IMG/VR virus record: IMGVR_UViG_3300018080_000298
Coordinates: 1 to 41,308 of that record
Reading direction: 5' to 3' (one strand)
DNA from: a virus
Length of the DNA: 41,308 nt
Below are positions 2 through 39,632 of this stretch, in pieces (the first letter of the stretch is position 1; every line of letters begins with the position of its first letter). Below the pieces are notes generated by a model. That model did not search any database. It worked only from the letters and a program-made list of their open reading frames with translations, and was not told the DNA's origin. Both the position numbers and the translations under genes were made by a program.

Positions 2-94
2 ATTCGCTCGCGGGCGGCGGAGATGAAGGATGAGGAGGGGGCAGACCTCCTCCGTCGAGCGGCCTTCCTCATCGAGCTTGGCAGCCCTCAATGA
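2..94 (+). CDS. C-terminal end of an upstream gene (partial)
   Basis: The only + strand frame open from the window edge ends at a TGA at 92-94 and gives about 30 residues ending in ...FLIELGSPQ. The fragment is charged and looks helical (RSRAAEMKDEEG, then LLRRAAF). The other two + frames hit stops within the first 40 bases, and the next gene follows 34 nt later, so this is probably the tail of a real gene. The fragment is too short to assign a function. By position it could belong to the sheath, a head-tail connector or another late protein, but nothing in the sequence decides this. Confidence 0.5.
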   Translation: MRSRAAEMKDEEGADLLRRAAFLIELGSPQ

Positions 95-95
95 C

Positions 96-117
96 TGTCC
101 TATCGCCTCCCGTTAGT
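96..117 (+). promoter_or_regulatory. Putative CTATAG-type intergenic element, degenerate copy upstream of the nuclease gene
   Basis: The gap after the upstream stop contains CCTATCGCCTCCC at 99-111. This matches CCTATAGCCTCCC at 33305-33317 at 12 of 13 positions; the difference is C for A in the TATAG core. As at the other sites, a C-rich run follows the core and a G-rich run pairs with it. The shared design is seen directly. A promoter role is inferred, and this copy is imperfect. Confidence 0.35.
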
Positions 118-125
118 GGGAGGCG
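104..125 (+). promoter_or_regulatory. Hairpin enclosing the ribosome binding site of the nuclease gene
   Basis: CGCCTCCC (104-111) and GGGAGGCG (118-125) form a perfect 8-bp stem with a 6-nt loop. The 3' arm contains GGGAGG, the ribosome binding site for the ATG at 129, with 5 nt of spacing. When folded, the stem would hide that site, so it could limit translation. There is no T-run after the stem, so a classical intrinsic terminator is less likely. Confidence 0.5.
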
Positions 126-128
126 CCG

Positions 129-578
129 ATGGGACGCTACGCATCTGCCTACTTCTCCCCCGACCGGGGGGCCGCCGACACCCTCATCGGCTTCATCGAT
201 CGCTGCACACAGACCCTTGACGCGGCGGTCTACTCCATCACCCATGACGAGATCGCGAACGCACTGATCCGGGCTCATGAACGTGGTGTCCGCGTCCGCA
301 TCCTGACGGACAAGACGCAGGCAGGGAATCGGTACGCCGATGACGAGCGCCTGGAGGCTGCAGGGGTCTCGCTCCTGCGGGATCGGGTCACCGGGTTGCT
401 CCACCACAAGTTCGTCATCGGGGACTCCGCGGCCGTCGGCACAGGCTCGTTTAACTGGACGAAGGGGGCGGATGAGCGCAACGCCGAGAACTTCGTGATC
501 CTGCGGCTGAAGTACATGGTCGAGGCGTTCGAGGAGGAGTTTGAGCGCCAGTGGGAGGCCAATCAGCCGGTTGAATAG
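129..578 (+). CDS. Phospholipase D-family (Nuc-like) nuclease, single HKD motif
   Basis: This 149-residue protein is a full-length single-domain member of the PLD/Nuc superfamily. The HKD motif is intact: H92-x-K94-x4-D99, followed by G106-S107-x-N109, then N118 and the N-E-N around 118-121 that are typical of the family. The N-terminal half has the usual YFSPD opening, an AVYSIT strand near residue 33, and the RGVRVRILTDK segment at about 52-62. Proteins with one HKD motif normally work as dimers that build one active site and hydrolyse phosphodiester bonds, mostly in DNA, without a metal. No signal peptide or membrane segment is visible, so a cytoplasmic site is expected. The start follows GGGAGG by 5 nt. 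Finding it just before the tube gene is odd. It may act on host or competitor DNA, or be a late cargo gene; this is inference. A phospholipid substrate cannot be excluded. Confidence 0.88.
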   Translation: MGRYASAYFSPDRGAADTLIGFIDRCTQTLDAAVYSITHDEIANALIRAHERGVRVRILTDKTQAGNRYADDERLEAAGVSLLRDRVTGLLHHKFVIGDSAAVGTGSFNWTKGADERNAENFVILRLKYMVEAFEEEFERQWEANQPVE

Positions 579-599
579 TCTCTCTATAGCCCACCCTCC
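578..599 (+). promoter_or_regulatory. Putative phage late promoter with T7-like 3' end, upstream of the tube gene
   Basis: GTCTCTCTATAG occupies 578-589, overlapping the last base of the nuclease stop codon, and is followed by a C-rich run to 599. The identical 12-mer recurs at 39582-39593, before the fibre gene. Its last ten bases (CTCTCTATAG) match 9 of 10 bases of the T7 promoter end CTCACTATAG. The upstream recognition part of the T7 promoter is not conserved. The repeat is seen directly; initiation at or near the final G is inferred. Confidence 0.5.
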
Positions 600-626
600 A
601 TAGGAGGGTGTGAGTTCCCCACCCTC
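592..626 (+). promoter_or_regulatory. Two mutually exclusive leader hairpins before the tube gene
   Basis: CACCCTCC (592-599) pairs with GGAGGGTG (603-610) in a perfect 8-bp stem with a 3-nt loop. The motif CACCCTC is repeated at 620-626 and can pair with the same central arm (604-610) in a 7-bp stem with a 9-nt loop. Both stems cannot form at once. The second ends directly before the ribosome binding site GAAGGAG at 627-633. It may be a switch, an RNA-stabilising 5' structure or a decoy SD; the sequence does not say which. Confidence 0.45.
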
Positions 627-639
627 GAAGGAGCTTCGG

Positions 640-1488
640 ATGCCGAACCTCGACAACACCCCCGCCAACGGACTCCAGGGGTCCTCGTACATCTACAACT
701 ACGGCACGAGTCCGAACACGCGGGCGGCCGTGTCGCAGAAGGTCCGGGTGTTGACGCCCGCCTATGGCGAAACCTCGTCAATGCACCAGATGGGCGTCAT
801 CGCAACGTTCAGCCCGAGCCTCAGCCGCGGCGTTACGGAGACCCGGGGTATCGGCTTCGGCGATCAGATCGCTGAGCTTGTCCCGGACGTGACGGCGATG
901 CCGACGGCCTCCTTCGAGCGGGCGCTGCTGTACCTCAGCAACCTCTGGCAGGCCACGGGCTATGCCGCGGGTATCGACGGCCCGGTGCGGTCACTGGCAC
1001 ACCACCGCTGGCCCTTCGATGTCGAGCAGCAGATGGTGTTCAGCACGTTGGCTGACGCCGACCTGGGTCGGGCGAACACCGGGTACAGCGGCACCAGCGG
1101 TGCGTTCGATGGCGGTATCAAGGCCATCGAGTACCCCGAGGTCACCAACGACAACAGCGCCGAGGGCTTCCCGGGGGCGAACCGCGGACACTCGGCGATC
1201 ATCACCATCTACGAGGCGTGCTGGTTCCAGGACTGGAGCGTCAGCTTCGCCAAGGACACGGGCCAGATCGCGGAGTCTGGGACCGTCGCCGTGAGCGACA
1301 TCCACGACTTCTCCTCGATGTACGGTGAGTTCCTCGCCACGGGTAACGACCCGAGCATCGGCCAGCTTGGCTCCATCCGGTTCGCTGAGGTCGAGAGCCT
1401 CCAGGGCATCGGCGCCTTCTCCACGGCGGGTGGTGGTATCCAGGGTGGTGGTGGCGTCAGCGAGTTCGTCGATCAGATCGGCGGGTAA
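640..1488 (+). CDS. Probable tail tube (major tail) protein
   Basis: This 282-residue protein is assigned as the tail tube mainly from its place directly before the chaperone-like pair and the tape measure gene, the standard order in tailed phages. It is beta-rich, without coiled coils or membrane segments. Near residues 195-235 is a block like the outer strands of tube proteins (a CWFQDWSVSF segment, then VAVSDI). It ends in a flexible glycine-rich tail (AGGGIQGGGG near residue 265). Tube subunits form stacked hexameric rings around the tape measure protein and carry the DNA during ejection. I chose the ATG at 640 because GAAGGAG lies 6 nt upstream. An in-frame GTG at 610 would sit inside the hairpin only 1-2 nt after its GGAGGG. 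The gene has its own putative promoter and leader, as expected for a highly expressed protein. A minor tail protein remains possible. Confidence 0.62.
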   Translation: MPNLDNTPANGLQGSSYIYNYGTSPNTRAAVSQKVRVLTPAYGETSSMHQMGVIATFSPSLSRGVTETRGIGFGDQIAELVPDVTAMPTASFERALLYLSNLWQATGYAAGIDGPVRSLAHHRWPFDVEQQMVFSTLADADLGRANTGYSGTSGAFDGGIKAIEYPEVTNDNSAEGFPGANRGHSAIITIYEACWFQDWSVSFAKDTGQIAESGTVAVSDIHDFSSMYGEFLATGNDPSIGQLGSIRFAEVESLQGIGAFSTAGGGIQGGGGVSEFVDQIGG

Positions 1489-1740
1489 GGTCTTACCGAG
1501 GGTCGCGTAGGCTCTCGTAGATATCCCTCGCCTCGGTGAGGGGAGATAGGCAACCGAGGTCTCCTCGGTGGAGAAGACAGATAGACACCGAGATGTAGAT
1601 GTAAATCCTTGTGCTTTGCTCCTCTCCCGGCCTTGCGGTTGGTGAGATGGTTAGATGGACATGTAGACGGCGAACATGGAAACGCATCTCTTGCGCTGTC
1701 TTTGCCACCGGGCGACCCCACAGAGGAGTGGGTCAGCCCC
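1489..1740 (+). other. 252-nt untranslated stretch between the tube and chaperone-like genes
   Basis: This is the longest non-coding stretch in the window. It is visibly more AT-rich than its neighbours and crowded with TAGA/GATAG words, including ATGTAGA at 1593-1599 and 1661-1667. It contains two hairpins (annotated separately). CTCTCGTAG followed by a CCCTCGCC run near 1512-1532 may be a very degenerate copy of the CTATAG-type element. A short open frame from the ATG at 1676 and a TTG-initiated extension of the next gene are possible on paper, but neither has a credible ribosome binding site. I see no tRNA fold. Confidence 0.6.
1525..1569 (+). terminator. Tandem hairpins after the tube gene: possible terminator, attenuator or RNA 3'-end stabiliser
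   Basis: The first stem pairs 1525-1531 (CCCTCGC) with 1536-1542 (GTGAGGG) around the tetraloop CTCG, with one G-T pair. The second is a perfect 7-bp stem, ACCGAGG (1553-1559) with CCTCGGT (1563-1569), and a 3-nt loop. They lie 36-81 nt after the tube stop. No run of Ts follows either stem, so an intrinsic terminator is not certain. Partial termination or protection of the abundant tube mRNA from exonucleases fits the position. Confidence 0.4.
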
Positions 1741-2952: not shown

Positions 2953-2958
2953 CTCGGG

Positions 2959-4173: not shown

Positions 4174-4185
4174 AGGTGGGTTCAC

Positions 4186-8279: not shown

Positions 8280-8285
8280 GGAGTG

Positions 8286-9677: not shown

Positions 9678-9680
9678 GGC

Positions 9681-12600
9681 ATGGGAATCGAACAACGACC
9701 CTACATCGGCACCTGGCGGCTGAACAATCGTCAGCTTGTCCAGTACACGCCGGACTGCCTGGTGTACATCAACGGTGACCTTACGGTGCCGGGATCCAAC
9801 CTGCGTGGTGAGCAGAGCCGGCTGAACCTCCAGCCCTACATCACCAGCGTCAGCGTGGAGGGTAGCGTCGAGCCCGGCGGCCACAGTGCCAACGTTTCTG
9901 TTTCGCTCCCCGTCCACCTCCTTGAATCGGTGGTGCGGGATGCACAGTTCATCCTGCGCCCGGCCCTCGAAGTCCATGTCTACATGCGGGGATATTTCCC
10001 GGTCCGCGGCTTGTTCCGTGAAACCGGGGATGACGTGGAGGTGTACGACAGCGAGACGGGGCAGTTCGCGGCGGGGGAGCCTGACGTCACCTTCGAGGAG
10101 TTCGAGGGTGAGGGGGACACCGAGCAAGTGGACGGTGAGGGTGTCGAGACGCCCACGTCGACCCTGAATCTCGAAGACACCATCGCCAACTCGTGCCTCT
10201 CCCCGGCACAGCAACAGGTGGCCAATACGATCGCTCAGACGATTCGTAATGCGGGGTACTCCGACAATCTCGCTCTGGCGGCCATCACCAATGGTATTCA
10301 AGAAAGCAGCCTGAACCCGAATGCTGTTCAGCAGACGACGTGGACGGACTCCAGCGGGGACGAGCGACAGCCCACAGGGGCCCTCGGGATTTTCCAGCTA
10401 CTCCCTGACAAGGGGGCTGGGGCTGGGGTGGCCGGTTTCGAGAATGGGAAGGCTGCGGGGACGTCCGAGACGGAGTCTACCTACGACGCCTTCGATGTCG
10501 ACACCAACACCCGGCGCATGATCTGGGAGATGCAGAACACGAAGTTCGGGGAGTCCATCCGCCAGGCCGAGGCCGAGGGGGCTTCTGCAGCCGTGCTTAC
10601 CGACCTGTGGAGCCATGACCTGGAGCGCTCCCAAAGCTCCGACAGCCGCGTCCCCATTGGTGTCGAATGCTTCGGCGAGGATGCCATGGGGGCAACAGGG
10701 GGGAGCTTCGAGACCTTCAACACCCTCAATGTGGACGAAGCTCTGAGCGGGAGCAACGAGTTCGAGGGACGTGGGTGGCACAGCAAACAGGTGTGGGACG
10801 ACCTGCTGTCCTACCCCTACTACCACGTCTTCCACGGCGTGGTGACGGATGTTTCGTTCAGCTACTCGGGGGGTTTCCAGACGGCCCAGATGAACTGTGC
10901 CTCGATGCTCCACTTCTGGCAGTACCACAAGGTCTCGACGAGTGCCGCCGCCCGAGGCGTCAAGGTCGCGAACTCGGGTCTGAAGACGAGCTACACCGGC
11001 AACTGGTACACGAACAAGACACCCTACGAGATCATCTACTCGCTGTGGCACGACACGGCCGGTTCGGCGGCAGGATTGTCGTCCACGTTCAGTCAGAAGA
11101 CGAACATCGCGGCGAGCTACCAGGGGGCATCGCTGTTCTCCATCGCCATCGAATACTGGCGTCGCCGCTTCCAGACGCAGATGAACAATCTGCGCCTCCA
11201 TGGCATCAGCGGCCAGTTGTTCAACTCGGCCCAGGCGGCGTTCCTTGGACGCCTCAGCAAGGATGAGGCAAAGGCATTGTTCCCCTCGGAGGGCGGGGCA
11301 CATCAAGGCTCGACCAACATCCTGTCTGCGGCCCAGGCGTTGAACCTCCTCGACCCTCGCAAGACGGCAACCAACGAGAAAGCAGCCGCTGAGCAGGAGC
11401 AGACAGGGACGGCGGGGGAGGGCCAGACGGGGCTGTTCGAGGAAGGTGACCAGGTTGAACTCAACATCTTCTCGATGTTGCCCTTCGTCTACGACATCGG
11501 CAGCCTCGGCGCCCCGGCTCTGTTCGAGTCGGCGTTCATGAGCAAGCTCGACATTGCCCAGCAGGTGTGTGAGGCGACGAACTTCGAGTTCTTCCAGGAC
11601 ATGGACGGTGATTTCGTTTTCAAGCCGCACATGTACAACATGGACACGTCCTCCAGCCGGGTATACCGCATCGAGGACATCGACCTCATCGACATCAATT
11701 TCTCCGAGAAGGAACCCATCGCCACCTACGTCACGGCCAAGGGAAACACCTTCGAGAATGTCCAGGGGACTGGCACAGAGGGCGAGTGGGGAGCCTCTGG
11801 CCTCTACGTGGACTACCGGTTGGTGGCGCAGTTCGGCTGGCGTCCTGGCGACATGGAGATCAGCTACTACAACGACGCCCGCCGGATGTTCTACGCCGCC
11901 ATCAACAAGCTCGATCTGTTGAACATCGAGATGAGCAGTGGAAGCTGCAACATCCCGTTACGGCCAGAGATGCGGCCGGGCTACCCCGTCTACATCCCGT
12001 ATCTGGATGCCTTCTACTACGTCCCGAGCTTCTCCCACAGCTACCAGGTCGGGGGGCGTTGCACCACCAGCCTCCAGTTGACCGGCAAGCGGGCCAAGTT
12101 CTTCGCCCCCGGAGACACCGCCGACATGAACGGCGGCCTCGACACGATCCACCTGGAGAATCTCGCGTACCCGCCGAAGCCCTTGCAGGTACTCGACGAC
12201 GAGAACAACGCCCGCATGGTCGGATTCCCGAACGTGGTGATGGCGCTTGACCCGCAGGGGGTGAACCCCCTCGAACTCATCGCGGGAGCCGACTTCACCG
12301 ACCTGACGGACACACAGTCTCTCCGGGCGTTGCTCTACTACGCCGTGCAGATGCGGAACGAGATCACCGGACCGGACAGCCAGGGCTACTACCAGTACCA
12401 AGGGGACCTTTTCGGAGGGAAGAAGGTCTCGCTGTACATCAGCGACCCCGAGCAGGAGCGTGGGTCGGGTGTCTACCAGGAGGGGCAGGCCATCGACTTG
12501 CGGGCTGTGGGTGAGGTGTCCACGGAGATCGACAAGGCCAACCTCCAGCAGGGCATCCAGACGGTCGATACGGCGACGGTTACCGGCCCCGACGACCAGC

Positions 12601-14510: not shown

Positions 14511-14511
14511 G

Positions 14512-26500: not shown

Positions 26501-29237
26501 GACAGGACTCTCGCCGACGAACCATGCGTTCCCGGCGGCTCCTGGGCGCCTCTACTGCATCACCACCCTCGATGGTGTGGACTCCGAGGTGGTGAGCGCC
26601 GAGTACACCAGCATCGACACCGTGAACTTGCGCTTCACGCTGGCCGTGAACACCGGGGCGGGGGAGTACCGCAGGGCGGATGGCACGACCATCCCGGCGG
26701 GCAGTGAGGGGACGGACTTCTGGGACCTGCTGTCGGATGGCATGACGGTCTCGGGGATGGTGTACTTCGCCCTCCGCATCAACGGCGACCAGAACAGCAG
26801 CCTGCCTGCGAACAATGCGGTGGGCTTCCGTGATGACATCACAGGGACGCAGGTCTCGGCTCACGGCTTCGCTGGGGTGACAGTGACGACGCCTGCTGGA
26901 GCCACCAACCCCAGCGAGCTACAGGAGTTCGTCTACGACAGCGCCTACTACGGTGGTGCTGCCACGGTGTACGACATCGAGGAGTCCTCGGGAGCACCTA
27001 CTCCCGAGGCACTGCAGGTCCATGCTGGCACGGTGAACTCCAGCGACGTGTTCGTACCGGACGTCGAGGATGCAGTGTTCGATCACGTTCCGGTGCTGCT
27101 GGATCTCTCGGCTTGGGCCACGGTCTACGGCGTCGCCAACGTGTGGACAACGATCCGCCAGTGGGCACAGGGGGCAACCTGTCTGCTGCCGGGTGACAAC
27201 GTCTCGACGTCGGCGACGTTCACGGCCTTGGCGCCCACCAACGTCTATGACGACGTGGATACGAACGGCCTGTGGATGGCTGCGGGCATCTGGACAGAGC
27301 CTTCCTTCCCACTGCCCGCGTTGAACAAGGCCGAACTCGACAACCTCCCCATCGGCGCACAACGGTTGGTGGACCGCCTCACCGATCCGGTGGACCTGGC
27401 TGCGTTGGGCTTCCGCTTTGGGGGCTACGATGAGATCGTCGAGATCCAGGTTCGGCGCATCCGTCGCTTCCACGACATCCTCGAAGAAGTGGGGGATAAC
27501 TTCACCCCGCTGCGTTACGCCTACGAGATCCGTCGAGGGAAGACGACTGGCTACTCGCAGACGGACAAGCAGATCGGCCTGGTCGAGGCCCAGAACTTCG
27601 CCTGGCCGCCGGATGGCAGCACGGGGAACAACGGCACGCAGATGGGGCCGTTCACGAGCCCGGATGTGGGCATCAACAACGGCGATGTCTTCCGGTTGCT
27701 GGACAACGGTGACCTCGTGGATGAGGTGGTGATCCAGGGGGTCACCAATGACCACACCCTTGCCTTGGCGCCTCCGGGGATTACCTATGCAGATTTCCTG
27801 GCGAGCCCGGGGGACGCCCGCTTCACCTTCGAGATCTACATCAAGCAGGCCCCGGTGCCTCACGAGCAGTCGAACGCACAGCTTCTCGACCTGATGACCG
27901 ATCAGGTGGTGACGGAGACGGTGCCTGACTATGCCACCCAGACGGGTGGCTACGTGCCGGCGATTCCTTATGTCCCGCCCACAGGAAACGGCTTCTGGGA
28001 GGACTACGCCAACCTGCTGTACGACGATCGCGATCTCACCCCCTTCACAGAGAGGGGTGTCCAGGAAGGCGACATCGTGTTGGTCGACCCGGCGGGCGAA
28101 GTGCGGGGACCCGGTGCTGCTACCTCCCCTCCGGAGGAAGGTGTGCGGCCCTTCGGTGACGATGGCATCATCGATCGTCCAGGCGTGGGTGTGACAGGGA
28201 CCTCGATCTACACGGCAGGTCTGACGGACACGCTGGACGACAACCGGGGCTTCTACCGCGTTGAGGAGGTCCTCACAGACCACCTGCGGGTCTCGGCAGG
28301 CTACACCGGGGACTTCGAGGGGAACCTGACGTCACAGGGCTCGGAGTACCGCGAGGACGTGAAGTTCCCCAACAACCCGGCGTACCTGTCGGACCTGGGG
28401 TACACCGTCTACCCGACGATCCACGCCAGCGTCATCAATCAGCCCCCCTTCACGGAGACCTCCGTGGATGATGGTCAGGAGGGACAAATGGACCTCCGAC
28501 CGACGCAGTATGCGGGTATCGACAACGACGGAACCCCGGTTCCCGGCTTCTCGGACAGCTTCGCGGTCAACGACTTCTCCATCCGACCCTTCGGCTTCAA
28601 GGTCATCCGGCCGTCCACGTTGTTCAGCGACGAGGCCATCGAGTTCGTGCTGATGAATCGGGAGCGCACGCTCTCGCTCATCGAGCAGTTCCGTCAGCCG
28701 TTGCTGGGGGGTAAGGAGGGGTCCTACTTCGTCTTCCAACGGGACCTCCACGGGCGCAACCTCGGGGTGCCGACGCTTCCGCAGAGCGGTCTCGGTGTCT
28801 ACCACAACGCCTTGCTCTACGACCTCACCGGGCGTGTGGATGTGGTGCCCTACTCCAACGACACCGACTGTCTGGGAGTGACCGACCGCCGGTTCTGGAT
28901 CAAGGACAGCAACTTGGACAGCCTCACCGCCGCCGCCTCGGGCGTGGGGATGAGGAAGACGGGCGTCGGTGACGTGCCCTACACGGCCTACACCGACACC
29001 ACCGGCTTGATGCCAGGCCCGAGTATCGGGTCCAGCGTGCGGCCGGTGTTGCCGGACTACGTGGATATCGCCCTCGATATCCGAGACCGCTTCCGGGATC
29101 TCCGGTTCGCCTGGGTCCGCTACCGGGCCCATCGGACGGAGGGGACCCTGGCCCAGATCCGCGTGTTCGACGCTGAGCTTCCCAAGCGACTCGAAGAACG
29201 CGAGGAGATCCTGTTGCAGCAGAAGGCGAACACATGA
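17544..29237 (+). CDS. Giant beta-rich virion structural protein (3,897 aa)
   Basis: One open frame of 11.7 kb encodes 3,897 residues; the ATG abuts the previous stop. The protein is overwhelmingly beta-stranded, without transmembrane segments or recognisable catalytic motifs. A recurring turn of the form [S/D]TGx[L/I]x[L/F] followed by V..Y strands appears near residues 424, 1165 and 1627, with a related one near 1345, suggesting many small sandwich domains in series. Residues about 2745-2825 carry a GGSGY-type repeat (AVTYGGSGYDRG, then VLNPGHAYTAP), common in phage appendage proteins. The last 60 residues become helical and charged and end in RVFDAELPKRLEER. It sits between spike and wedge genes, so it is probably a baseplate component or a long peripheral structure contacting the host. 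Alternatives are a side fibre or a whisker. No frameshift is visible. Confidence 0.65.
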   Translation: MAFDFSGSVIRGARTANANATTTGRAQSGVVRDVKPLPPTFDLTSSNGYAPDLVDADADHYRTAILNSPVEGTTEYMIWAANSSQIARIDTSNDDWLSEDGTGTIPIGTDPVQKIPASAGYFEDGTNKVIVTDNGGNSIAAIKEIRVRNGGTLAVTTIDAVDFKSVDPDSGLIEVSSPVLVADFNGAFSNERGDRVTKVEYWVAASRFWWTRNDPYETRFGWDAGRQQWRPYKGGPVKDLGPLSFDGTYVLSPRPTGVGVGDYLPGTAGNGDRYAMVRLGRVPDSGSLPVAENNDVLVAPFSGLLVVDDGDVGSYSFSSSGAPEAGVVGLTSGAVQWNPSFIQEYAGQMVWYSHRSFDAEATGGVGALRDADRNPLFITPPPTIGQHVFIRVGTRRFLTPILVESDTDLDTVTPSVTEVGVSMSTGKLKLSEDLVGKADPDNPLYDPQYLGAQVNFDGVALNEQPQPLRQPVPLEDEDGDPIVGIRDEDKAFVPVADPFEANGLGTSGILHVPDWTGAEPRIATSVPGVRPGGNNSVDQTTGLVRHVYFYPPGVESVYVGDTFMFSYKGAVEFLLTVPRTEDLPGLSLGVKGGKAKVAREATLLTNLTLGSAVKLNFKAIRDLGTNNEVYFQQAWFRPATYTNTARVVGRIRDEFTFDGGETLVFAIDGVLPAHEWTATAGTFSIDEVVADIQANTVPVLPANAVSQSGGHLVLQAATSIEIGFGKNNVKDLSACEALGVLPGWRAVGGQDNWLSDSGLTFGLNRSPLNLDRSEPYADFQERYRVEDLQLSPDSGIQAQALVLLDYPPLQDVPGYDDNVFFQITTLVQNGPTVAIDNRYLYNPTDVLYRFGEGYFAWLDESNTIQAIEQPRRDLTLGQVNVIEDSLLGAQPDPDMGLFVSEGGSFQRLTTDQYTLINGGVPGIALLTEQVGGLVASGSRGSWGAGSNVFINDFQGDENFENLGIEPGYRLKIPSGDATGSYIVQQVVSPTTLIVSPPFLWGSGERFASWDLYKGFTDEVYDPAIVADVLFEEFNHLPEEPFHIRVLSPLGETPADPAAQTANRLQAVMTDALQSGREISLRFGIEHATATNTASLTGLGRKELGTIANDSLFLPGATESDPEHTRYEDQAFFIQLGTEVFTPGSGLTAVTQFTDPFPPGAIEYLISTGELRFGSEVLSDYDQAEVLWVASFLDAAKLVEGVAEYDPATGLLNLSEADLIAHTGQEVYFVEQMVTEARKDVAFSPLASAFAFMRPLRERQVVEVDFFKADLTGHKAKDGDGNDIEVLTYLPVYINGEMATRVESKVYSFNPPDGSGFRRTVFTEVEPTIWVNGYMQNFGVDDLTIDYEDFTIHFKTDLQTTDEVRVSYAVINAFGGEKAYSSAVFPAYRPPFFLEANQDTFLLDTDRRGDMEPGRMMRLGAFPTYIKSSTYDSSADQTTVTIFPAPVVEAGSRAPGNDVLTLITDIPVTTEVDPDNPVAIPDAPAGFLLPLSDATLGGDLDWEPVNRGGFSIDFQGNLMKFAVAGHLMEVGGYPFIIADASISEDGFKTTVTFTSPFPQGFSMENGDAIKLSVRPMYPPQPRNFLGVSPFLATEGTELVLFGETDEDGNELPGRTLVPSVEYVADADTGNISLLEPIQAPLAPVQKLYFRYTKVGLLQPEYDKGTLRIPRYTARYRFNTVPSEENGLLGGLLQATYSFYNPDSFFARVVPLQEYAFEAATEIIGDVTSGQGGQGPLLTSGASTPPDAGLASLTTERGDLTDLDRAARLFLSFYNDAVVAFEQIKEAIDGSIVGDRDGKFRFYIGKGKDYVPPGYEDAISGLLNPRFIWSEVMQSSNVGFEMPVLETDPLLDPLTAVILDAVMEGVPMDPFTLGRLFEYQKRLIQNDIDDRLLTGPARPKLDWNPALGPVFQPFGTFESMWEPQPFSRLFPERTNAFFLTYPGINADPSSRTLGVDRSAWAGRYSFLTPISRPSFSWEEGYTPPQFASTYRTDIASISNPVIGPITQIRNILVQRRLARGRVWRYFPTGIEAEALFPGSPAVTDPCAIVSLLPLSEFPIDPGTGFPDTDRFIAQGGDLYDLTTGDPELRTPAWSDFPDNQQLQVGQPTGVTYPIAYKSGSMPVGDGLPGIYVNEVLYGCIVTFKSLASGGPGAPPTDVPISDSTEILRLTDINSGPVMSLEQGDTLYVIPPAFTPAETDSPPTEEDELRMRLGMPQYRRGMDVAIRNKLGVLRDLSLPGGADNIPFDLQKFFGQNPPLPMSELQALCNFTNESIDPLQLPCLLGEAKDDTGDFQIPYVAVTNTEIDRLSAITVGISDLLTIKSADGTQYVYPDEVRGSDGLIQDALGGVPPLPPATLITTSRHDPATFNPAALGVGDVEQYDLLLMEYGSPTILPTGSQGFLSVGRVQRDATDSYSLVEVPRFITQTAQGDPIQYDFNNALTYFTPNPQPPPPLGIGCRIYEDTTTQETWLDFSDLGQIRLNDGGGVAGIGGLNRIFAADPGNAVIIRLFAREPFVGPITVEPGDIVLTIILFQGQIRAVYADGSTNTVPGTTVSAGENNPNSADLDFRSFKYDGYAPGNEPIDLSTHPEIPSTNAAGIWSTDYGYDFTISVTTLGGGTAFSDTAYIDSDRLTFIEVVDCRTALPRGTRHPVGFQEIGCNLVVHGVTVEGAGSLSDVNKWVNGDSSGIGVGLPFPLTFLQRDPSQLELWLQGTTEGIGVWEDATVSGAGDERGAVRVMSFEGYEAPTADTATASPTLVGGQITAIAVTYGGSGYDRGIARVFITDPTGISAEAEAVVTAGVVTAVNVLNPGHAYTAPVVTIVHEAGNISCLDSNLRFSLIPSSEKDETELVVGDLGTICTGVSLIRDGESNRFSNIDTSGGLPYGGAITKVVAGDVIEVRTGSSVTGTIKAGTYLVRHGVQDNTPIHAPGPLLGGDRLRALTLSTTAGGRNDWADIAFPQIANAEVGNPSIDEGARQIRVTDLFEEELTGLSPTNHAFPAAPGRLYCITTLDGVDSEVVSAEYTSIDTVNLRFTLAVNTGAGEYRRADGTTIPAGSEGTDFWDLLSDGMTVSGMVYFALRINGDQNSSLPANNAVGFRDDITGTQVSAHGFAGVTVTTPAGATNPSELQEFVYDSAYYGGAATVYDIEESSGAPTPEALQVHAGTVNSSDVFVPDVEDAVFDHVPVLLDLSAWATVYGVANVWTTIRQWAQGATCLLPGDNVSTSATFTALAPTNVYDDVDTNGLWMAAGIWTEPSFPLPALNKAELDNLPIGAQRLVDRLTDPVDLAALGFRFGGYDEIVEIQVRRIRRFHDILEEVGDNFTPLRYAYEIRRGKTTGYSQTDKQIGLVEAQNFAWPPDGSTGNNGTQMGPFTSPDVGINNGDVFRLLDNGDLVDEVVIQGVTNDHTLALAPPGITYADFLASPGDARFTFEIYIKQAPVPHEQSNAQLLDLMTDQVVTETVPDYATQTGGYVPAIPYVPPTGNGFWEDYANLLYDDRDLTPFTERGVQEGDIVLVDPAGEVRGPGAATSPPEEGVRPFGDDGIIDRPGVGVTGTSIYTAGLTDTLDDNRGFYRVEEVLTDHLRVSAGYTGDFEGNLTSQGSEYREDVKFPNNPAYLSDLGYTVYPTIHASVINQPPFTETSVDDGQEGQMDLRPTQYAGIDNDGTPVPGFSDSFAVNDFSIRPFGFKVIRPSTLFSDEAIEFVLMNRERTLSLIEQFRQPLLGGKEGSYFVFQRDLHGRNLGVPTLPQSGLGVYHNALLYDLTGRVDVVPYSNDTDCLGVTDRRFWIKDSNLDSLTAAASGVGMRKTGVGDVPYTAYTDTTGLMPGPSIGSSVRPVLPDYVDIALDIRDRFRDLRFAWVRYRAHRTEGTLAQIRVFDAELPKRLEEREEILLQQKANT

Positions 29238-29470
29238 CCGAGATCACCAGCTACGAGGAACTGCTGGCCGAGCTTGAACGCCGTGGCGTGAAGGCCGGGG
29301 GGTGGCACGACATGGAGGCGAGGACCGTCAAGCCCGCCTTCGCCGACCGCCAGGCAGAGCTTCTGTCCAAGGTGAAGGACCTGTTGGAAGCTCAACTCGA
29401 AGAAGACAAGAAAAGCCTGGCCCAGGCGCAAGAGACGTTGAACCGGCTCCGGCACGGTGGGGGGATCTGA
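29234..29470 (+). CDS. Small coiled-coil protein, translationally coupled to the giant protein
   Basis: This 78-residue protein overlaps the giant gene by 4 nt (ATGA), a typical coupling arrangement. It is almost entirely helical and charged; residues about 35-72 (LLSKVKDLLEAQLEEDKK) have clear heptad spacing. It is probably a dimer or trimer that clamps or assembles a larger structural partner, most likely one of its immediate neighbours. Its length and composition match neither lysis proteins nor known regulators. Function unknown. Confidence 0.6.
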   Translation: MTEITSYEELLAELERRGVKAGGWHDMEARTVKPAFADRQAELLSKVKDLLEAQLEEDKKSLAQAQETLNRLRHGGGI

Positions 29471-29473
29471 GTC

Positions 29474-32350: not shown

Positions 32351-32359
32351 GGAGGACCG

Positions 32360-33292: not shown

Positions 33293-33300
33293 CTGGTGGA

Positions 33301-33329
33301 TTTGCCTATAGCCTCCCCCCAGGTAGAGG
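33301..33329 (+). promoter_or_regulatory. Putative CTATAG-type intergenic element before the wedge genes
   Basis: In the 49-nt gap, CCTATAGCCTCCC (33305-33317) shares the CTATAGCC core with the site before the tube gene and 12 of 13 bases with the site at 99-111. A C-rich run follows, and CCTC at 33312-33315 can pair with GAGG at 33326-33329 in the weak ribosome binding site of the next gene. This marks a likely new transcription start for the wedge block. The shared motif is seen; the function is inferred. Confidence 0.4.
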
Positions 33330-33341
33330 AACCGCGACGCG

Positions 33342-34565
33342 ATGACCACGGACTTCCAACTGGCCCATAGCTGCCCGCACGTCACGATGGAGGAGCCTGT
33401 GACGTTGCAGCAGAACCGCCGGGTGATGCCCACGAGGCAGCCGGTGGCGGGGTTGGGGCTGATCCGTGTGTTGGCCAACGACGAGGTGGTGGTCCCCCAA
33501 GGCGGCCTGTACGTGCCCGCCCAACTCAGCGGAGGGGACGCCGGCCCCTTTCATATCCTCCCGGGTGAGGGAGAGTTCCTTGTCCACGGGTCCACGGAAT
33601 CCGTGCGCCTCGACCTGGCAGCGACGGAGTTCGGGAGGCGCCTGCAGACAGACGACTTCATCCGGCTGTTCCGACCGCTGGCGGAAGCGATCATCGTCGA
33701 GAACGTCAACGGTTTCCTCGTCTTCACCGACACGGCGGCGGTGGGGCGTGAGTCGAGCTTGCAGGTCGAGGGTTGTGCCACGTCTGCCCTGGGCTTCGGT
33801 CTACAGCAAGGGGCCAGGGGTCGGATGATCTACCCCGGCTGGCACGTCTACGCCCCACCGGACCAGATCGAGACGAAGTGGCTGCGCTTCAACAGCCCCA
33901 TCTACAGCAACCCTCGCTTGAAGGTGACCTACGCCACGCCTCAGTGGCGGTGTCTGCGGTGCCAGGCGCAACTCATCGAGAATGACTACCGCTTCGATGA
34001 GCAAGGCCGCCTGCTGATGATCCGCAACGAGAACCTGTTGCATCAGGCAGCGCTGAAGATCCTGCTGACGACGAGGGGGACCAACCCCTACTTCCGGCAG
34101 TACGGCACGAAGCTGAAGTCCATGATCGGCATGAAGGCGATCAGCGGAACGGCGGCTGCCATCAACGAGGATGTCCGTGCGGCCCTCGTTCGCTTCCAGG
34201 GATACCAAGCGGCCCAGGCGAAGTACCAGCGCGTGTCGAACCGCGAGCGTCTCTACTCGATTCAGTCCGTGCGGACGATCCCACGGCCGGGTGACCCCAC
34301 GACGTTCCTGATCGACATCGTGGCCCAGAATGCGTCCTCTCAGCCGATCAACATCTCGATCGTCTTCACGGTGCCTGGGGTGGTGAGTCGGCTGGTACAG
34401 GACGGCGAGGTGCTCGCCCAGATCGGGGACAAGGGAACAGGAGTCTTCCCGGCCCTGACTGCGGGGGAGAGCTTGGCGCGCTCGGGGCGGAAACCGGCGT
34501 ACCTGGCGCCGCCTCAGATCCTCGCGGACCGAAGCGGAAGCGAGATCGGGGATGAGGAGGTCTAA
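33342..34565 (+). CDS. Baseplate wedge protein, gp25-like domain with an N-terminal extension and a CxxC motif
   Basis: The C-terminal half of this 407-residue protein (about 232-350) resembles gp25-type wedge proteins: a helix LLHQAALKILLTT, then GTNPYFRQYGTKL, an INEDVRAALVRFQ helix and closing strands (INISIVFTVPGV). These proteins join the sheath to the wedge and trigger contraction. The N-terminal 200 residues form an extra beta-rich domain (VPQGGLYVPAQL, then LHVYAPP-like strands). C204-x2-C207 lies just before the gp25-like part, and C11 with H9 and H13 near the N-terminus could complete a metal site. The ATG at 33342 follows AGAGGA at an 11-nt spacing, a weak site. The wedge partner gp6/J-like gene follows, matching the order in other contractile systems. 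Confidence 0.7.
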   Translation: MTTDFQLAHSCPHVTMEEPVTLQQNRRVMPTRQPVAGLGLIRVLANDEVVVPQGGLYVPAQLSGGDAGPFHILPGEGEFLVHGSTESVRLDLAATEFGRRLQTDDFIRLFRPLAEAIIVENVNGFLVFTDTAAVGRESSLQVEGCATSALGFGLQQGARGRMIYPGWHVYAPPDQIETKWLRFNSPIYSNPRLKVTYATPQWRCLRCQAQLIENDYRFDEQGRLLMIRNENLLHQAALKILLTTRGTNPYFRQYGTKLKSMIGMKAISGTAAAINEDVRAALVRFQGYQAAQAKYQRVSNRERLYSIQSVRTIPRPGDPTTFLIDIVAQNASSQPINISIVFTVPGVVSRLVQDGEVLAQIGDKGTGVFPALTAGESLARSGRKPAYLAPPQILADRSGSEIGDEEV

Positions 34566-34567
34566 CG

Positions 34568-37500
34568 ATGCCCGAGACGCCCAAGTTTCTCGGTCCTGAT
34601 GGCACGCTACGCGAGGACTACTCGTTCAGCACTACGATCGAGTCCCACTTCTTCACCGGGACCATCGACGCGGACACGGTGTTCATGCAGATCAGTGTCT
34701 TCGGACAGCCGTTCGAGGACGACCCCGATCTCATCACCTTCGAGGGAACGCAGTTCATCGTCCCCAACCCTGCGAAGTACCCGGACGGCCTTCGCCTGTT
34801 CCCGGGGGATAACACCATCCAGGTGCGTTCGGTGGTCACCTCGGGGGCGACCTCCAACCCGGCCAACCTCGATGTCCGTCTGATCCAGGACAGCGACACG
34901 GGACTCATCTACGAGGCCCCCACCGGCATCTACACCGAACGCGGCGACCAGATCGTGACGGTCATCCTCGACGGTCTCGATGACGACAGCGTCCAGGGGT
35001 ACAACTTCTATGCCTCGACGCAGCCAGGGGGTGGGACCGAGGGCTACTCGCAGATCAATACGAAGCTCGTCATCGACGTAGCCGACGTCGAGGAGACGCT
35101 GACTACCCTCGGAACACTCAGCGTGGATGCCCAAATCCTGACGGATTCCAACGGGGACCCTGTGGCGGACCCCCTGATGTACCGCGTCGAAGGGAGCCAG
35201 GAGAACATCACAGGCACCGTTCTTCAGCGGGACTACAACGAACGGTTGGAGATCCCCGAGAGCGCCACACAGGTCCGCACGGCGATGACCATCTCCTCGG
35301 TGGGGAAACAGAAGAAGTACGAGTTCGTCCACGCCCGTTCTGCTGGTTTCAACTCGTCCCCCTATCCGGCGATCCCGAACGGGGACTTCGCGGCGACGCC
35401 CACAACGGATCCCCTCTACTACGTCGCAACGGCGGTGTACTACGACTCGGATCGCCGTCTCGAAGTCGAGTCACCGTTCAGCATCGAGATCCCGGCCAAC
35501 CCGTTGGTCGTGACCCCCGTGGTGGGCGCCTTCCCGACGGTCTCTCGCCAGGCCATCGTGAGGGAAACGATCAACAGCATCTACCGCAGCAACCCCGACG
35601 TGGCGGTACAGCCGGGGGCGGTCCTTCGGGACACCTTCATCGATCCCTTCTCCTCCGAGGCGGAGCGCATCCGGTTCATCCTGGACTTCCTCCACCGGGC
35701 GCAGAGCTTCGCCACGTTGCTGGAGATCGACGACCCGCAGAACAGCGGGTTCAGCATCCCCGTCCAACAGTCGAGCTACAAGCTGGCCTTGGCACAAGCG
35801 TTCTTCCTGACGGACATCCGTCAGGTCCAGAACCTCATCAACATGTGCTTCGACAAGTTGGCGGCGAACTACGGCGTCATCCGTAAGACGGGCACACGAT
35901 CTCGGGGCGAGTTGACCTTCTACTTGAAGAGTCGGCCCAACCGCTCCTACCTCATCCCTCTAGGGACGCAGGTTCCAGGCTCGTCGGTAACAGCCCGGAC
36001 GACCTCCGTGGCTCGTATCGATCTGGACAACCTGGCGACGTACTTCGACGCCACGACCAACACCTACCGGGTCAAGGCATTCGCCCAGGTCACGTCGCCG
36101 GGGACCGCCGGCAACGTCGCCGAGGGGCAGTTCCGCACCGTCCCGAGCATCCCCGACCTGTTCGTGACCAACGAGGACAGCTTCTTTGGTGGCACCAACC
36201 AGGAGACCAACCGGCAACTTGCAACCCGGGCACAGTACAGCATCGCCAGCGTGGATAGCGGCACGGACCTCGGCTACTGGAGCACGGTGGCGAAGATCCC
36301 CGGTGTCGTCGAGTTGAAGGTCATCTCCTCGGGCGAGGAGTACATGGAGCGGGACCTGGATGCGAACGGGGTCCACAAGGGCGGCAAGGTCGATGTCTGG
36401 GTCCGGGGGGACAACCCGGCCAGCGTCACCGACACCTTCGCCTTCACCTTCGAGACGCGCTACGACGTGCAGTTCGAGGTCATCGGCGATCCGCAGGACC
36501 TCATCTTCCGGGCGGTGGACAGCAACCTGTCCGAGGACTTTCCGATCATCGAGATGCTGGACTACCCCAGCCACAACCCGAGGATCGGCTTCCGCAACGC
36601 CTCGAAGGGGACCTACTTCGTCCTCGATGACTACACCTTCCTTTCCTACGACACGATTCAGCTATCGAGCGAGTTCAATGACCCTGCCACCATCGCCGTG
36701 ACGGACGTGATCATGGGGGACTACCGCTACCGGACGAGCAACCAGTTCGTGTTGCTCCGGCAGCCGGTCACCGAGGTCACGGCCATGACCGGGCAGACGG
36801 GGTACACCGGGGCGCTGGATCCGAGCCTCTACACCCTCTATCGCATCCAGTCCCCGCTTCTGCTGGGGCGCTCGTCGATGGCGAGCGACTACGTGCAGGT
36901 GTCCTCCGACGATAGGGTGGGGCAGATCATCAGCGTGCCCGACGAGGAGCACGTCCTCATCGGCGAGGCCGTCGATTACCTGTCTTTCCTCGGGGTGAAC
37001 CCGTTGAGCATCGTGGTGAAGGACAAGAACGACACCTCGATCATCTACAACTCCCCGGACACAGCGGACCCCGACTACCGCATCATCGAGGACCCTGACC
37101 CGAGAGTGCCCACCGGTATTCAGCGGACGGAGACGACGCAAATCACCTCGGGCACCGAAGTCCTCATCGACTACGAGCACGACGAGAACTTCACCATCGA
37201 GTACAAGACAAACTCCATTGTGGGGGTCGTCCAGAGCGTCATCGACGGGATGCGACACATCACGGCTGACGTGGTGGTGAAGCTCGCTCTGGGGACCTCG
37301 GTGGACATCGCGGGCACGAACGTCCTGGTCAAGGGGACGACGGCGAACCCGGCCACGCCGAGGGATCAGATCGATCAGCAGGTGCGGACACGGGTGAGTA
37401 ACAAGTTCAACACGCTCCGCATGAAGAACGCTCTGGGGCAATCGGACGTCATCACCGAGATCAAGAAGGTCGTGCAGGTGGATGACGTGCTGGTGCCGCT

Positions 37501-38059
37501 GACGAAGCTCGCACGGGCCGACGGCTCCATGGTCCTCCGGGAGAGCCTGGACACGAGCGCTGCAGAAGACCTGGTGCAGATCATGGCCTGGAGCACCGAC
37601 ACCGTCCACACCTACCTGGTGGAGGATCAGCTTTCGTCCAGCACGACGAACGGTGGCGGTCCGGAAAACGAGTACCGGGCGGTCATCCAGGATGACGTGG
37701 CGATGAACCTGCAGACGACCATCCCCAACAGCGCAGGGGTGCCGTTGAAACTGGACCCCAACAACACCTTCATCATCGGCAGCGGTGGGCTCATCATCCC
37801 GGGATACAGCGACCTCGACACCTTGCGGTTGCAGTACCCCACGATGACGGACACCGAGCTTTACGCCCAGGCGGTGTTGATCACGGCGGACCGTATCCTC
37901 GTTACCGTCGAGGCCAACGATTCGCCGACGAATCATCAGTACGCGGTGACGTACATCGTGTCGGGAGACACCGGGGCCCGGAAGATCATCCCGAAGGACG
38001 TGGAGTACCTGGTGCCTGGGGACCAGAGCTACGTCTATGACGAGGCATCCGAAGAATGA
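34568..38059 (+). CDS. Baseplate wedge protein, gp6/J-like
   Basis: This 1,163-residue protein carries the baseplate J signature. A helical start (RQAIVRETINSIYRS at about 327-341) leads to the SYLIPLGTQVPGSS strand near 458, the typical SPGTAGNVAEGQ turn near 510, and FFGGTNQETNRQLATRAQ near 538-555. The N-terminal 110 residues look like an Ig-type sandwich, and another beta domain precedes the J core. The C-terminal part has further wedge-like segments (MRHITADVVVKLALGTSV near 894). J-type proteins dimerise into the ring that opens during contraction. A GAGGAGG site lies 7 nt before the ATG at 34568, after a TAA. It overlaps the next gene by ATGA. At nearly twice the size of T4 gp6, it has added domains at both ends. 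Confidence 0.82.
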   Translation: MPETPKFLGPDGTLREDYSFSTTIESHFFTGTIDADTVFMQISVFGQPFEDDPDLITFEGTQFIVPNPAKYPDGLRLFPGDNTIQVRSVVTSGATSNPANLDVRLIQDSDTGLIYEAPTGIYTERGDQIVTVILDGLDDDSVQGYNFYASTQPGGGTEGYSQINTKLVIDVADVEETLTTLGTLSVDAQILTDSNGDPVADPLMYRVEGSQENITGTVLQRDYNERLEIPESATQVRTAMTISSVGKQKKYEFVHARSAGFNSSPYPAIPNGDFAATPTTDPLYYVATAVYYDSDRRLEVESPFSIEIPANPLVVTPVVGAFPTVSRQAIVRETINSIYRSNPDVAVQPGAVLRDTFIDPFSSEAERIRFILDFLHRAQSFATLLEIDDPQNSGFSIPVQQSSYKLALAQAFFLTDIRQVQNLINMCFDKLAANYGVIRKTGTRSRGELTFYLKSRPNRSYLIPLGTQVPGSSVTARTTSVARIDLDNLATYFDATTNTYRVKAFAQVTSPGTAGNVAEGQFRTVPSIPDLFVTNEDSFFGGTNQETNRQLATRAQYSIASVDSGTDLGYWSTVAKIPGVVELKVISSGEEYMERDLDANGVHKGGKVDVWVRGDNPASVTDTFAFTFETRYDVQFEVIGDPQDLIFRAVDSNLSEDFPIIEMLDYPSHNPRIGFRNASKGTYFVLDDYTFLSYDTIQLSSEFNDPATIAVTDVIMGDYRYRTSNQFVLLRQPVTEVTAMTGQTGYTGALDPSLYTLYRIQSPLLLGRSSMASDYVQVSSDDRVGQIISVPDEEHVLIGEAVDYLSFLGVNPLSIVVKDKNDTSIIYNSPDTADPDYRIIEDPDPRVPTGIQRTETTQITSGTEVLIDYEHDENFTIEYKTNSIVGVVQSVIDGMRHITADVVVKLALGTSVDIAGTNVLVKGTTANPATPRDQIDQQVRTRVSNKFNTLRMKNALGQSDVITEIKKVVQVDDVLVPLTKLARADGSMVLRESLDTSAAEDLVQIMAWSTDTVHTYLVEDQLSSSTTNGGGPENEYRAVIQDDVAMNLQTTIPNSAGVPLKLDPNNTFIIGSGGLIIPGYSDLDTLRLQYPTMTDTELYAQAVLITADRILVTVEANDSPTNHQYAVTYIVSGDTGARKIIPKDVEYLVPGDQSYVYDEASEE

Positions 38060-39573
38060 GTTGTGAGGACAAGAAGGACCGCACGGGCGGTCCGAAGCTA
38101 CCGGATGAGAGCTACGTCCCGGGTGATGAGAAGATCATCCCCGATTCCGTAGACCTCAACCCGTCGCCCGTTGTCCTCGAAGGGCAGCAGCCCCACGATG
38201 TCTACCGTGACCAGACGGAGCGCATCATGCGCTTCTTCCACGCGGTGTTGCCCGACAACTATGTGAGCCAGGTCCGAGGTCCCTTCTACACCCTGCAGTT
38301 CCAGGCGGCGGCCGAGCAGCTTGCGAAGATCCAGATCGATGCCAACGAGGTCTTCGCCGACCAGGACTACGACTTCACGCGGCCGGAGTTCCTCTACCAG
38401 ATCCTCGGCTACCTCGTGTTTCCGGATTACGAGGTGGACGGGACGCCGAGCATCCCCACGGACATCGGCTACCGCGACTTCCTCCGTCGCATGGTCATCC
38501 TTCTGCTGCAAGGGGCGACGTGCAGCACGATCAAGAAGGGTATCGAACTCGTCACCGACGCGGACATCGACATCATCGAGAAGGCCATCGAATCGAGGAC
38601 GAACCCCGACACGGCCTACACGATCGAGGACCAGTTCGAGTTCGAGATCAGCGTCAGCAACACCGACACGACGACCGACGAGGGGCACTACCACGACGTC
38701 AACATCGACAACCTGGGAAGCGGCGAGACGACCTCCGTGCTCCCGTTGGAGTCGGTCCCTTGGCACGTCCATGAGGTAGTGGGCTTCGAGGTGCTGGAGG
38801 CGGGTGACCCCCTGCACACGCATCAGTTGCTGCCCAAGTTCCCCAACGAGGACAGCGACCCCTTCCGCCTGTGGCAGAACGTCCAGATCATCCTGCAGGC
38901 GTTGAAACCGGCCCACACGATCTACGAGTTCCGCTTCCTGTTCCGGGAGCACTTCGGTCCCCTCTTCGAGGACGAGATGTCCTGGGACATGGAGTTGTTC
39001 CACTACGACGACTTCCGGAAGTTCTGTCTGGGGGCTCGCGAACTCACGGGGACGGGAGACACCCTCTCAGACCGGAGCCTGTTCCGAGATGCCTCCAAGA
39101 GCTTCGAGTCCATCTCGGTGGGGGCCGAGCTTGCGATCTCCAGTGGCCCGAACGTGGGGCGGTGGGAGGTCGAAGACGTGCTCGTCTTCCCGGTGGGGGA
39201 CGACTCGACGCCTCGCAGCTACACCACGTCGCCAACGGGACTGACGGGGACGTTGACCATCTCCGGGGACACGATCACCGACGAGAGCCAGGATTTCGCT
39301 GCGGCAGCCGAGGGAGAAACCCTGACGATCACGGAAGGCCCAAACGCAGGGGTTTACCTGTTGTGGGACCTGTTGGGCTCCAATGGAGGTCGGATTGGCT
39401 TCGTGACGGGACCTGGTACGAGTGTGCGGATCGCCCCTTCCCTGGTGCGTTTGACCCAACGGATGGCGGATGAGGTCGCGGGTCAATCGTACCGCATGTC
39501 GGTGGACCGCCTTGGTATCCAAGTGCCCCAGGTGGTGACGGGGGAAGATGCCAGCGAGCAATTCTACCTCTGA
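38056..39573 (+). CDS. Baseplate wedge protein, gp7/tail protein I-like, with a His-rich insert
   Basis: This 505-residue protein overlaps the J-like gene by 4 nt, as expected for the J-I pair. Residues about 50-185 have the helical character of I-like proteins (VYRDQTERIMRFFHAVLP, then RDFLRRMVILLLQGATCS). Three HxH motifs follow at residues 211/213, 237/239 and 254/256; this looks like a metal-binding insert, perhaps trimeric and iron- or zinc-loaded. The C-terminal 170 residues are beta-rich (TGTLTISGDTITDESQDF near 395), perhaps fibre-binding. The protein should connect the wedge ring to the fibre encoded next. The assignment rests on gene order and general pattern; I see no catalytic motif. 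It is clearly longer than typical P2-type I proteins. Confidence 0.6.
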   Translation: MSCEDKKDRTGGPKLPDESYVPGDEKIIPDSVDLNPSPVVLEGQQPHDVYRDQTERIMRFFHAVLPDNYVSQVRGPFYTLQFQAAAEQLAKIQIDANEVFADQDYDFTRPEFLYQILGYLVFPDYEVDGTPSIPTDIGYRDFLRRMVILLLQGATCSTIKKGIELVTDADIDIIEKAIESRTNPDTAYTIEDQFEFEISVSNTDTTTDEGHYHDVNIDNLGSGETTSVLPLESVPWHVHEVVGFEVLEAGDPLHTHQLLPKFPNEDSDPFRLWQNVQIILQALKPAHTIYEFRFLFREHFGPLFEDEMSWDMELFHYDDFRKFCLGARELTGTGDTLSDRSLFRDASKSFESISVGAELAISSGPNVGRWEVEDVLVFPVGDDSTPRSYTTSPTGLTGTLTISGDTITDESQDFAAAAEGETLTITEGPNAGVYLLWDLLGSNGGRIGFVTGPGTSVRIAPSLVRLTQRMADEVAGQSYRMSVDRLGIQVPQVVTGEDASEQFYL

Positions 39574-39581
39574 TCCCGTTT

Positions 39582-39600
39582 GTCTCTCTATAGAACCCCC
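39582..39600 (+). promoter_or_regulatory. Putative phage late promoter with T7-like 3' end, upstream of the fibre gene
   Basis: GTCTCTCTATAG at 39582-39593 is identical to the site at 578-589 and again lies just after a stop codon in a short gap (39574-39632). A C-rich run follows. Two identical 12-mers in two gaps of about 60 nt are very unlikely by chance (about 3,600 position pairs against 16.8 million 12-mers). It probably starts a separate transcript for the fibre gene; this is inferred. Confidence 0.5.
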
Positions 39601-39610
39601 TCTTTGAATC

Positions 39611-39623
39611 CTCCACGCAGGAG
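39611..39623 (+). promoter_or_regulatory. Short hairpin overlapping the fibre gene ribosome binding site
   Basis: CTCC (39611-39614) can pair with GGAG (39620-39623) around a 5-nt loop. GGAG is the core of the ribosome binding site (AGGAG, 9 nt before the ATG at 39633). The stem is only 4 bp and would be weak on its own, but the layout copies the stronger hairpin at 104-125. Confidence 0.25.
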
Positions 39624-39632
39624 TGGTGCGCC

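Follow-up and report, generated by a model that had tools for sequence, protein, structure and literature searches.

The short gaps between gene blocks of the IMG/VR virus record IMGVR_UViG_3300018080_000298 contain copies of a two-box element, CGGTAG-N5-YTATnG, that is very probably a promoter. The analyzed stretch, hereafter the window, is the whole record (41,308 bases, GC content 0.63), which is probably itself a piece of a larger phage. With the base that follows YTAT numbered +1, the consensus is approximately C-G-G-T-A/G-n-N5-C/T-T-A-T-n-G, extending from roughly -15 to +1, and YTAT is its best conserved portion. The element recurs with the same spacing in related huge phages, where it is found upstream of homologues of the same genes and together with one branch of a phage sigma factor family. 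Judging from these patterns, we consider it likely that the element represents a huge-phage promoter class at which a phage sigma factor would act with the host core polymerase, with TAG at -12 to -10 and transcription starting next to YTAT. No earlier description of the element was found in the open-licence literature.

Copies of the element in the window

Gene calling placed 17 genes in the window, all on the plus strand and together covering 98% of it, and a 78-amino-acid open reading frame at 29234-29470 that was missed by the gene caller occupies one further space. The remaining gaps are 0-12 nucleotides (nt) long, with the exceptions of 95-128 (gap A), 579-639 (gap B), 1489-1740 (252 nt), 33293-33341 (gap C) and 39574-39632 (gap D), which bears out the gene layout and short-gap coordinates given in an earlier reading of the window that was made without database searches (the sequence-only reading). 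That reading had also proposed a CTATAG-like core in each of the four short gaps. Such a core is present in all four, as CTATAG in gaps B, C and D and as CTATCG at 100-105 in gap A, but the actual element is larger than was described and consists of two boxes. The four copies are:

89-105, plus strand: element A, CAATGACTGTCCTATCG (TGA-CTGTC-CTATCG), with T-12 at 92, CTAT at 100-103 and a predicted start at 104 or 105
573-589, plus strand: element B, GAATAGTCTCTCTATAG (TAG-TCTCT-CTATAG), with TAG at 576-578, CTATAG at 584-589 and a predicted start at 588 or 589
33295-33311, plus strand: element C, GGTGGATTTGCCTATAG, with CTATAG at 33306-33311, a degenerate upstream box and a predicted start at 33310 or 33311
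39577-39593, plus strand: element D, CGTTTGTCTCTCTATAG (TTG-TCTCT-CTATAG), with CTATAG at 39588-39593 and a predicted start at 39592 or 39593

Elements B and D are clear copies and A a fair one; C keeps only the CTATAG half. The TGA of element A (92-94) doubles as the stop codon of the preceding gene, as does the TAG of element B (576-578) for the nuclease gene. The palindrome CTATAG occurs three times in the window, at 584, 33306 and 39588, each time inside a short gap. This count alone is ordinary (at least three were reached in 12 of 100 shuffles), but gaps make up only about 1.2% of the window bases, and the naive chance of all three falling within them is approximately 2e-6.

Relatives of the window were gathered from IMG/VR through the tube and wedge proteins. 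In one of these, the 205-kb G010 (tube 56% identical), GGTAGTnnnnCTATnG is found in many gaps. A de novo motif search on 109 gaps of this genome, with the gap before the tube gene excluded, returned CGGTAGtccgtCTATnG with a log-likelihood ratio (LLR) of 231, compared to 90-116 in five dinucleotide shuffles; these replaced a reversed-sequence control, which was uninformative because it returned the same motif mirrored. When both strands of the window (approximately 82,600 positions) were scanned with the resulting matrix, element B ranked first (18.8 bits), element D second (15.1 bits) and element A fourth (9.5 bits). A matrix pooled from 115 sites in nine other records likewise placed B first (15.5 bits) and D second (12.5 bits), with A at rank nine (8.6 bits). 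A motif search on the gaps of relatives, which the sequence-only reading had suggested as a check, thus recovered the element without use of the window.

A worn fifth copy had also been suspected near 1512:

1489-1740, plus strand: 252-nt gap, no element copy detected

No site in this gap scores above -3.1 bits with the pooled matrix, a value that 695 positions of the window reach, and none of six homologues of the next gene has CTAT upstream. On these two grounds the gap was rejected as an element copy. An Rfam scan of the window, including this gap, matched no family.

Spacing and position relative to genes

The distance between the two boxes is fixed. Among 1,509 gaps in 80 records (3.36 Mb), TAG-N5-YTAT was found in 128, compared to 7-19 for each of the other spacings from 0 to 11 and 4-19 for the mirrored pattern. 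The same preference is seen within single genomes, with N5 in 22 gaps of G010 (other spacings 0-1), 12 of G014 (0), 6 of G011 (0), 40 of G012 (approximately 3) and 17 of LR745208 (approximately 2). The last of these is a 485-kb uncultured huge phage with tube and wedge proteins 63% and 41% identical to those of the window. No N5 peak was observed in phiKZ or in the acidobacterial jumbo phage Tunturi_5. Element frequency inside genes had been named as a further check, and in five genomes the element is 17-fold denser outside genes than within them; in 23 of 107 cases from five genomes the TAG box is the stop codon of the preceding gene, as in gap B.

Motif searches on short fragments (G001, G003, G006-G009 and G018-G020) gave nothing reliable, and for this reason a syntenic test was used for these records. 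Distinct upstream sequences of homologues with at least 34% identity were inspected for CTAT at -75 to -18. It was present upstream of 13 of 19 tube homologues (1.9 expected), 14 of 16 homologues of the gp25-like gene (1.4 expected) and 6 of 8 fibre homologues (0.7 expected). For window genes without a short-gap element the counts were close to chance (0 of 6, 1 of 5, 2 of 14 and 2 of 31). The gene at 38056 gave 5 of 17 (1.5 expected), and some relatives may have a promoter before their homologue of this gene. Below 34% identity no clear CTAT excess was seen.

Twenty-seven syntenic sites that lie outside the main motif-training genomes were chosen by CTAT alone. At these sites T-12 is conserved in 93%, C-15 in 67% and G-14 in 63%; a pyrimidine (C or T) occupies -5 in 92%. 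This conservation indicates that the upstream box is real in the clade of the window, in the form CGGTR-N5-YCTATA.

Layout and predicted start site

Between -45 and -17 the information content in G012 and G038 does not rise above noise, and between -15 and -1 it is sharp, which argues that there is no -35 box; in particular, one placed 16-18 bp upstream of a -10 box, as in host sigma-70 promoters, is absent. For G012, 70 leaders were compared with shuffles: their pairing with the downstream part is in excess from bases 1-2 onward (0.19, confidence interval 0.10-0.28), climbs to 0.28 at bases 6-9, and between -12 and -2 is absent or negative. Stems with a sharp edge at the base immediately past the box were not cleanly seen, and this averaged pairing profile was used in their place. 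In addition, T is depleted at the first base past the box, and bases 7-8, where a conventional start site would lie, are approximately 75% pyrimidine in G012. From the onset of leader pairing and this base composition, we lean towards a transcription start that abuts YTAT, with the caveat that the box itself cannot easily evolve pairing and that the pairing edge could reflect the box instead of the RNA end. Such a start would put TAG at -12 to -10, where sigma2 domains read -10 elements, and G-14 would fit an extended -10 element.

Candidate reader of the element

Many of these huge phages encode a protein of approximately 200-400 amino acids with a weak Pfam match to sigma-70 region 2. A profile of this family matches the solved sigma-H of Fusobacterium across both sigma2 and sigma4 (E-value: 2e-11). 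Both domains of an AlphaFold model of the phage protein (predicted local distance difference test, pLDDT, 82.7) can be aligned with sigma factors: 79 residues superpose on region 2 of sigmaE at 2.4 A, and alignments with sigma4 domains are also obtained. By profile and model, then, the protein is predicted to be a sigma factor of the sigma-H/extracytoplasmic function (ECF) type with sigma2 and sigma4 domains. Sigmas of the G010 type have an extra domain ahead of these two. This conserved N-terminal domain (YFARxEHGGHRV...YPSARxTIxALVN...DPKxTFDRYFRxG) spans residues 1-110 and is found in G010 (L200:8001-8906) and its relatives. The gene itself lies beside the wedge block of G010:

87182-88033 of G010: sigma gene, adjoining the wedge block

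It is also present in G014, G012, G038 and LR745208. G038 (297 kb) served as a forward test, having been chosen solely because its sigma is 67% identical to that of G010. A motif search on this genome returned CGGTAG.ccgcCTAT, with N5 in 30 gaps compared to 0-1 at other spacings. G042, G044 and G053 peak at N5 as well, no N5 peak accompanies a distant sigma branch (A1 type), and Tunturi_5 has neither the sigma nor the element. With this co-occurrence in view, recognition of the element by a phage sigma factor appears probable. The window fragment shows no sigma gene; we infer that the phage from which the window derives has one.

Phage-encoded polymerases were sought as well. The T7-like family PF00940 was matched in none of 14 huge-phage records and in both the T7 and N4 controls, and on this basis a T7-like polymerase was rejected for these phages, among which that of the window is represented by its fragment only. 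The multisubunit family PF00623 gave no match in these phages, though this test is insensitive and misses phiKZ too. An FDGD-type multisubunit catalytic motif was not found in the called genes of G010, G012, G014, G038 or LR745208; the same search detected one of those of phiKZ.

In the mechanism that we propose, the phage sigma, with its sigma2, sigma4 and extra N-terminal domains, would direct the host core RNA polymerase to the element. Its sigma2 domain would read TAG at -12 to -10, YTAT would occupy -4 to -1 and there would be no -35 box. Transcription would begin at the first or second base past YTAT, the element would drive late particle operons (nuclease, tube, baseplate and fibre), and in some genes the 5' bases of the RNA would fold onto the ribosome-binding site or close to it.

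Leader hairpins

The sequence-only reading had joined the promoter to a leader structure in which a G-rich run pairs with a C-rich run. Two of the four leaders contain such a stem:

104-125, plus strand: leader hairpin A, CGCCTCCC-GTTAGT-GGGAGGCG, a perfect 8-bp stem (-16.7 kcal/mol, z -4.4)
592-610, plus strand: leader hairpin B, CACCCTCC-ATA-GGAGGGTG, a perfect 8-bp stem (z -2.9 for the first 40 nt and -2.1 for 55 nt)

The nuclease gene (start 129) has its ribosome-binding site within the 3' arm of hairpin A, and that of the tube gene (AAGGAG, 628-633) is located downstream of hairpin B. No stem was found in leaders C and D (z about -0.2 to +0.7), so the proposed pairing holds for A and B only. 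In G010, G014 and G012, though not in G038, leaders that follow the element show more structure than the remaining gaps do. Pairing of the ribosome-binding site is also more frequent in G010 and G014 than it is when the spacers are shuffled. The arrangement of gap A, CTATCGCCTCC...GGAGGCG, is seen again before the gp25-like gene of both G010 and G014. The leader hairpin is therefore real but varies between lineages and lies outside the element, to which it is an optional add-on. It may affect the stability of the mRNA or delay its translation.

Proposed transcription units and timing

The earlier proposal that promoters peculiar to the phage split this region into separate transcription units is supported by the out-of-sample matrix ranks, the spacing control, the non-genic enrichment, the conservation before the same genes and the co-occurrence with the sigma. 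The genes and units concerned are:

129-578, plus strand: PLD-like nuclease gene (Pfam PF13091, E-value: 5e-26), behind element A
640-1488, plus strand: gene earlier labelled tail tube, without a family match, behind element B
33342-34565, plus strand: gp25-like/sheath-initiator baseplate gene (PF10934, E-value: 3e-5, below the cut-off; PHROG baseplate families), first in the wedge block behind element C
34568-38059, plus strand: baseplate wedge gene (J/gp6-like; phrog_6, E-value: 4e-24), in the unit behind element C
39633-41306, plus strand: gene earlier labelled fibre, without a family match, truncated by the record end, behind element D

The nuclease unit lacks comparative support, as the sole homologous upstream region found is without the element. 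Two other genes of the window encode large proteins: a 1609-amino-acid tail protein with a Phage_lysozyme2 domain (9681-14510, E-value: 3e-10), and a 3897-amino-acid protein with no Pfam matches (17544-29237) that is perhaps a very long tape measure. A nucleotide search with the window returned no named relatives.

Because the genes served are particle genes, and because 12 of the 17 element sites of LR745208 fall in its structural third (255-425 kb, p 0.003), we infer that the element belongs to a late class.

Other gap motifs were observed in these phages. The strongest gap motif of LR745208 differs from the element, and a motif there other than the element, CTCGTGCCGATAGGG, is found mainly in other regions. 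In LR745208.1 (L190-L199) a second motif besides the element, ctcctCGTGCCGATAGGG followed by a ribosome-binding site, has approximately 30 copies, mostly in non-structural regions (for example at 1660, 15343, 25808, 40818 and 349778), and perhaps represents an early promoter class. Gaps of G010 (L066-L076) share GTTAAAA...CTGCTTCCGTAAGTAxxTGA repeats, often as opposed pairs in regions of small genes (for example near 39400, 94100 and 160700-169000), which are a candidate promoter or regulatory class. Tunturiibacter phage Tunturi_5 (PP885688.1, L319-L334) has a strong motif of its own, C.Cc.gaTGGGTATTAGC, in approximately 28% of 176 gaps (LLR 364). As this phage is an isolate with a known host, its motif is testable in culture.

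Comparison with known promoter systems

In class III promoters of T7, CTATAG lies at the start, and that of phi10 is followed immediately by a 5' hairpin. The element described here differs from these in that no T7-like polymerase was found, the upstream box is unrelated and the recognition sequence is much shorter. Parallels are also found among phages that redirect the host RNA polymerase with a sigma factor of their own, as is proposed here. Middle and late promoters of phiEco32 (sigma gp36) have a single tAATGTAtA element, and late promoters of phage 7-11 (sigma gp47) are bipartite (GTAAtg-16-aCTA); in both, transcription starts 6-9 nt downstream (PMC8948821). The huge-phage element resembles these in serving late gene blocks with a short phage-specific sequence and, in the case of 7-11, in having a CTA-containing downstream box, but it differs in its TAG-N5-YTAT layout and in a start that probably adjoins YTAT. 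T4 late promoters (gp55) are likewise compact, lack -35 conservation, depend on a phage sigma (here a predicted one) and serve late particle genes (PMC2988020). They have one AT-rich box, TATAAATA, at the -10 position, whereas here there are two boxes, TAG and YTAT, with GC-rich flanks (G010 and G038). Late promoters of phiKZ share a box touching the start (TATG), and those of AR9 share a box near -11 at a fixed distance (AACA-N6-TA/G), but the letters differ and the readers are non-virion phage multisubunit polymerases, none of which was seen in these phages (PMC7598289, PMC5312081). It is possible, if short of an even prospect, that the layout is unprecedented among sigma-read promoters: a TAG box in the -10 position, an obligatory YTAT occupying -4 to -1 and touching the start, no -35 box, a conserved huge-phage sigma family with an extra N-terminal domain and, at some genes, a 5' hairpin that gates translation.

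Alternative explanations

Several observations weigh against recognition of this promoter class by a phage sigma and a start next to YTAT. The upstream box is missing from element C, in which only the CTATAG half remains and GGT is displaced by one base; its pooled-matrix score is weak (2.3 bits, 118 positions equally good) and its support comes from synteny. A YTAT so well conserved at -4 to -1 is unusual in promoters that sigma factors read, and there is no -35 box even though the phage sigma includes a sigma4 domain. In the part read of the 618-kb phage G052, whose sigma is a distant relative within the family, the element is barely present. No sigma gene was found in the 41-kb window or in its nearest relatives, which are also fragments, and the co-occurrence of sigma and element is explicable by shared ancestry alone. 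One alternative is the same promoter class and sigma with YTAT as the -10 element, a start 6-9 nt further downstream and TAG as an extra contact near -20. The superior conservation of YTAT, the start distances of the phiEco32 and 7-11 sigmas and the aCTA downstream box of 7-11 (PMC8948821) agree with such an arrangement. We nevertheless judge it unlikely, because the excess leader pairing that begins at bases 1-2 past YTAT would then lie in untranscribed DNA, the start would be expected at the largely pyrimidine bases 7-8 of G012, and the depletion of T is at the first base. We also know of no precedent for a sigma that makes contact near -20 at a distance of five bases from the -10 box.

A promoter of a phage-encoded RNA polymerase, either multisubunit (phiKZ/AR9 type) or strongly diverged single-subunit, would make the sigma incidental. 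A YTAT adjoining the start recalls T-3 A T G+1 of phiKZ and CTATAG of T7, and the box near -11 recalls AR9 (PMC7598289, PMC5312081), but the absence of PF00940 matches alongside matched T7 and N4, and of FDGD-type motifs in the called genes of five genomes, makes this quite improbable, even allowing for a Pfam test that misses phiKZ. Recognition by a host sigma factor, or by a DNA-binding regulator that is no promoter factor, is more improbable still. Housekeeping sigmas also use G-14, T-12 and A-11, but the element tracks the phage sigma branch, and its spacing is constant across phages of 45-68% GC, a range which implies that their hosts differ; standard sigma-70 sites are no more frequent than expected in the first 20 kb of the window (2 compared to 2.2). 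Chance occurrence of a few similar words in short gaps has next to nothing to recommend it beyond the ordinary CTATAG count: it leaves unexplained the placement and matrix rank of the copies, and it is refuted by their recurrence before homologous genes and the specificity of the N5 spacing. A phage sigma acting at a promoter of the TAG-N5-YTAT form remains the explanation that we prefer.

Significance

Huge phages of 200-600 kb are known mainly from metagenomes, and their gene control has been little studied. Because the consensus is valid in phages with GC contents of 45-68%, sequence is enough to mark transcription units and genes that are likely to be late. The candidate sigma and promoter form a pair that is testable in vitro without culture of either host or phage, and if the start does adjoin YTAT, the promoter layout would go beyond current sigma models. 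Read as a promoter, the element would indicate how large uncultured viruses switch on the genes for their particles.

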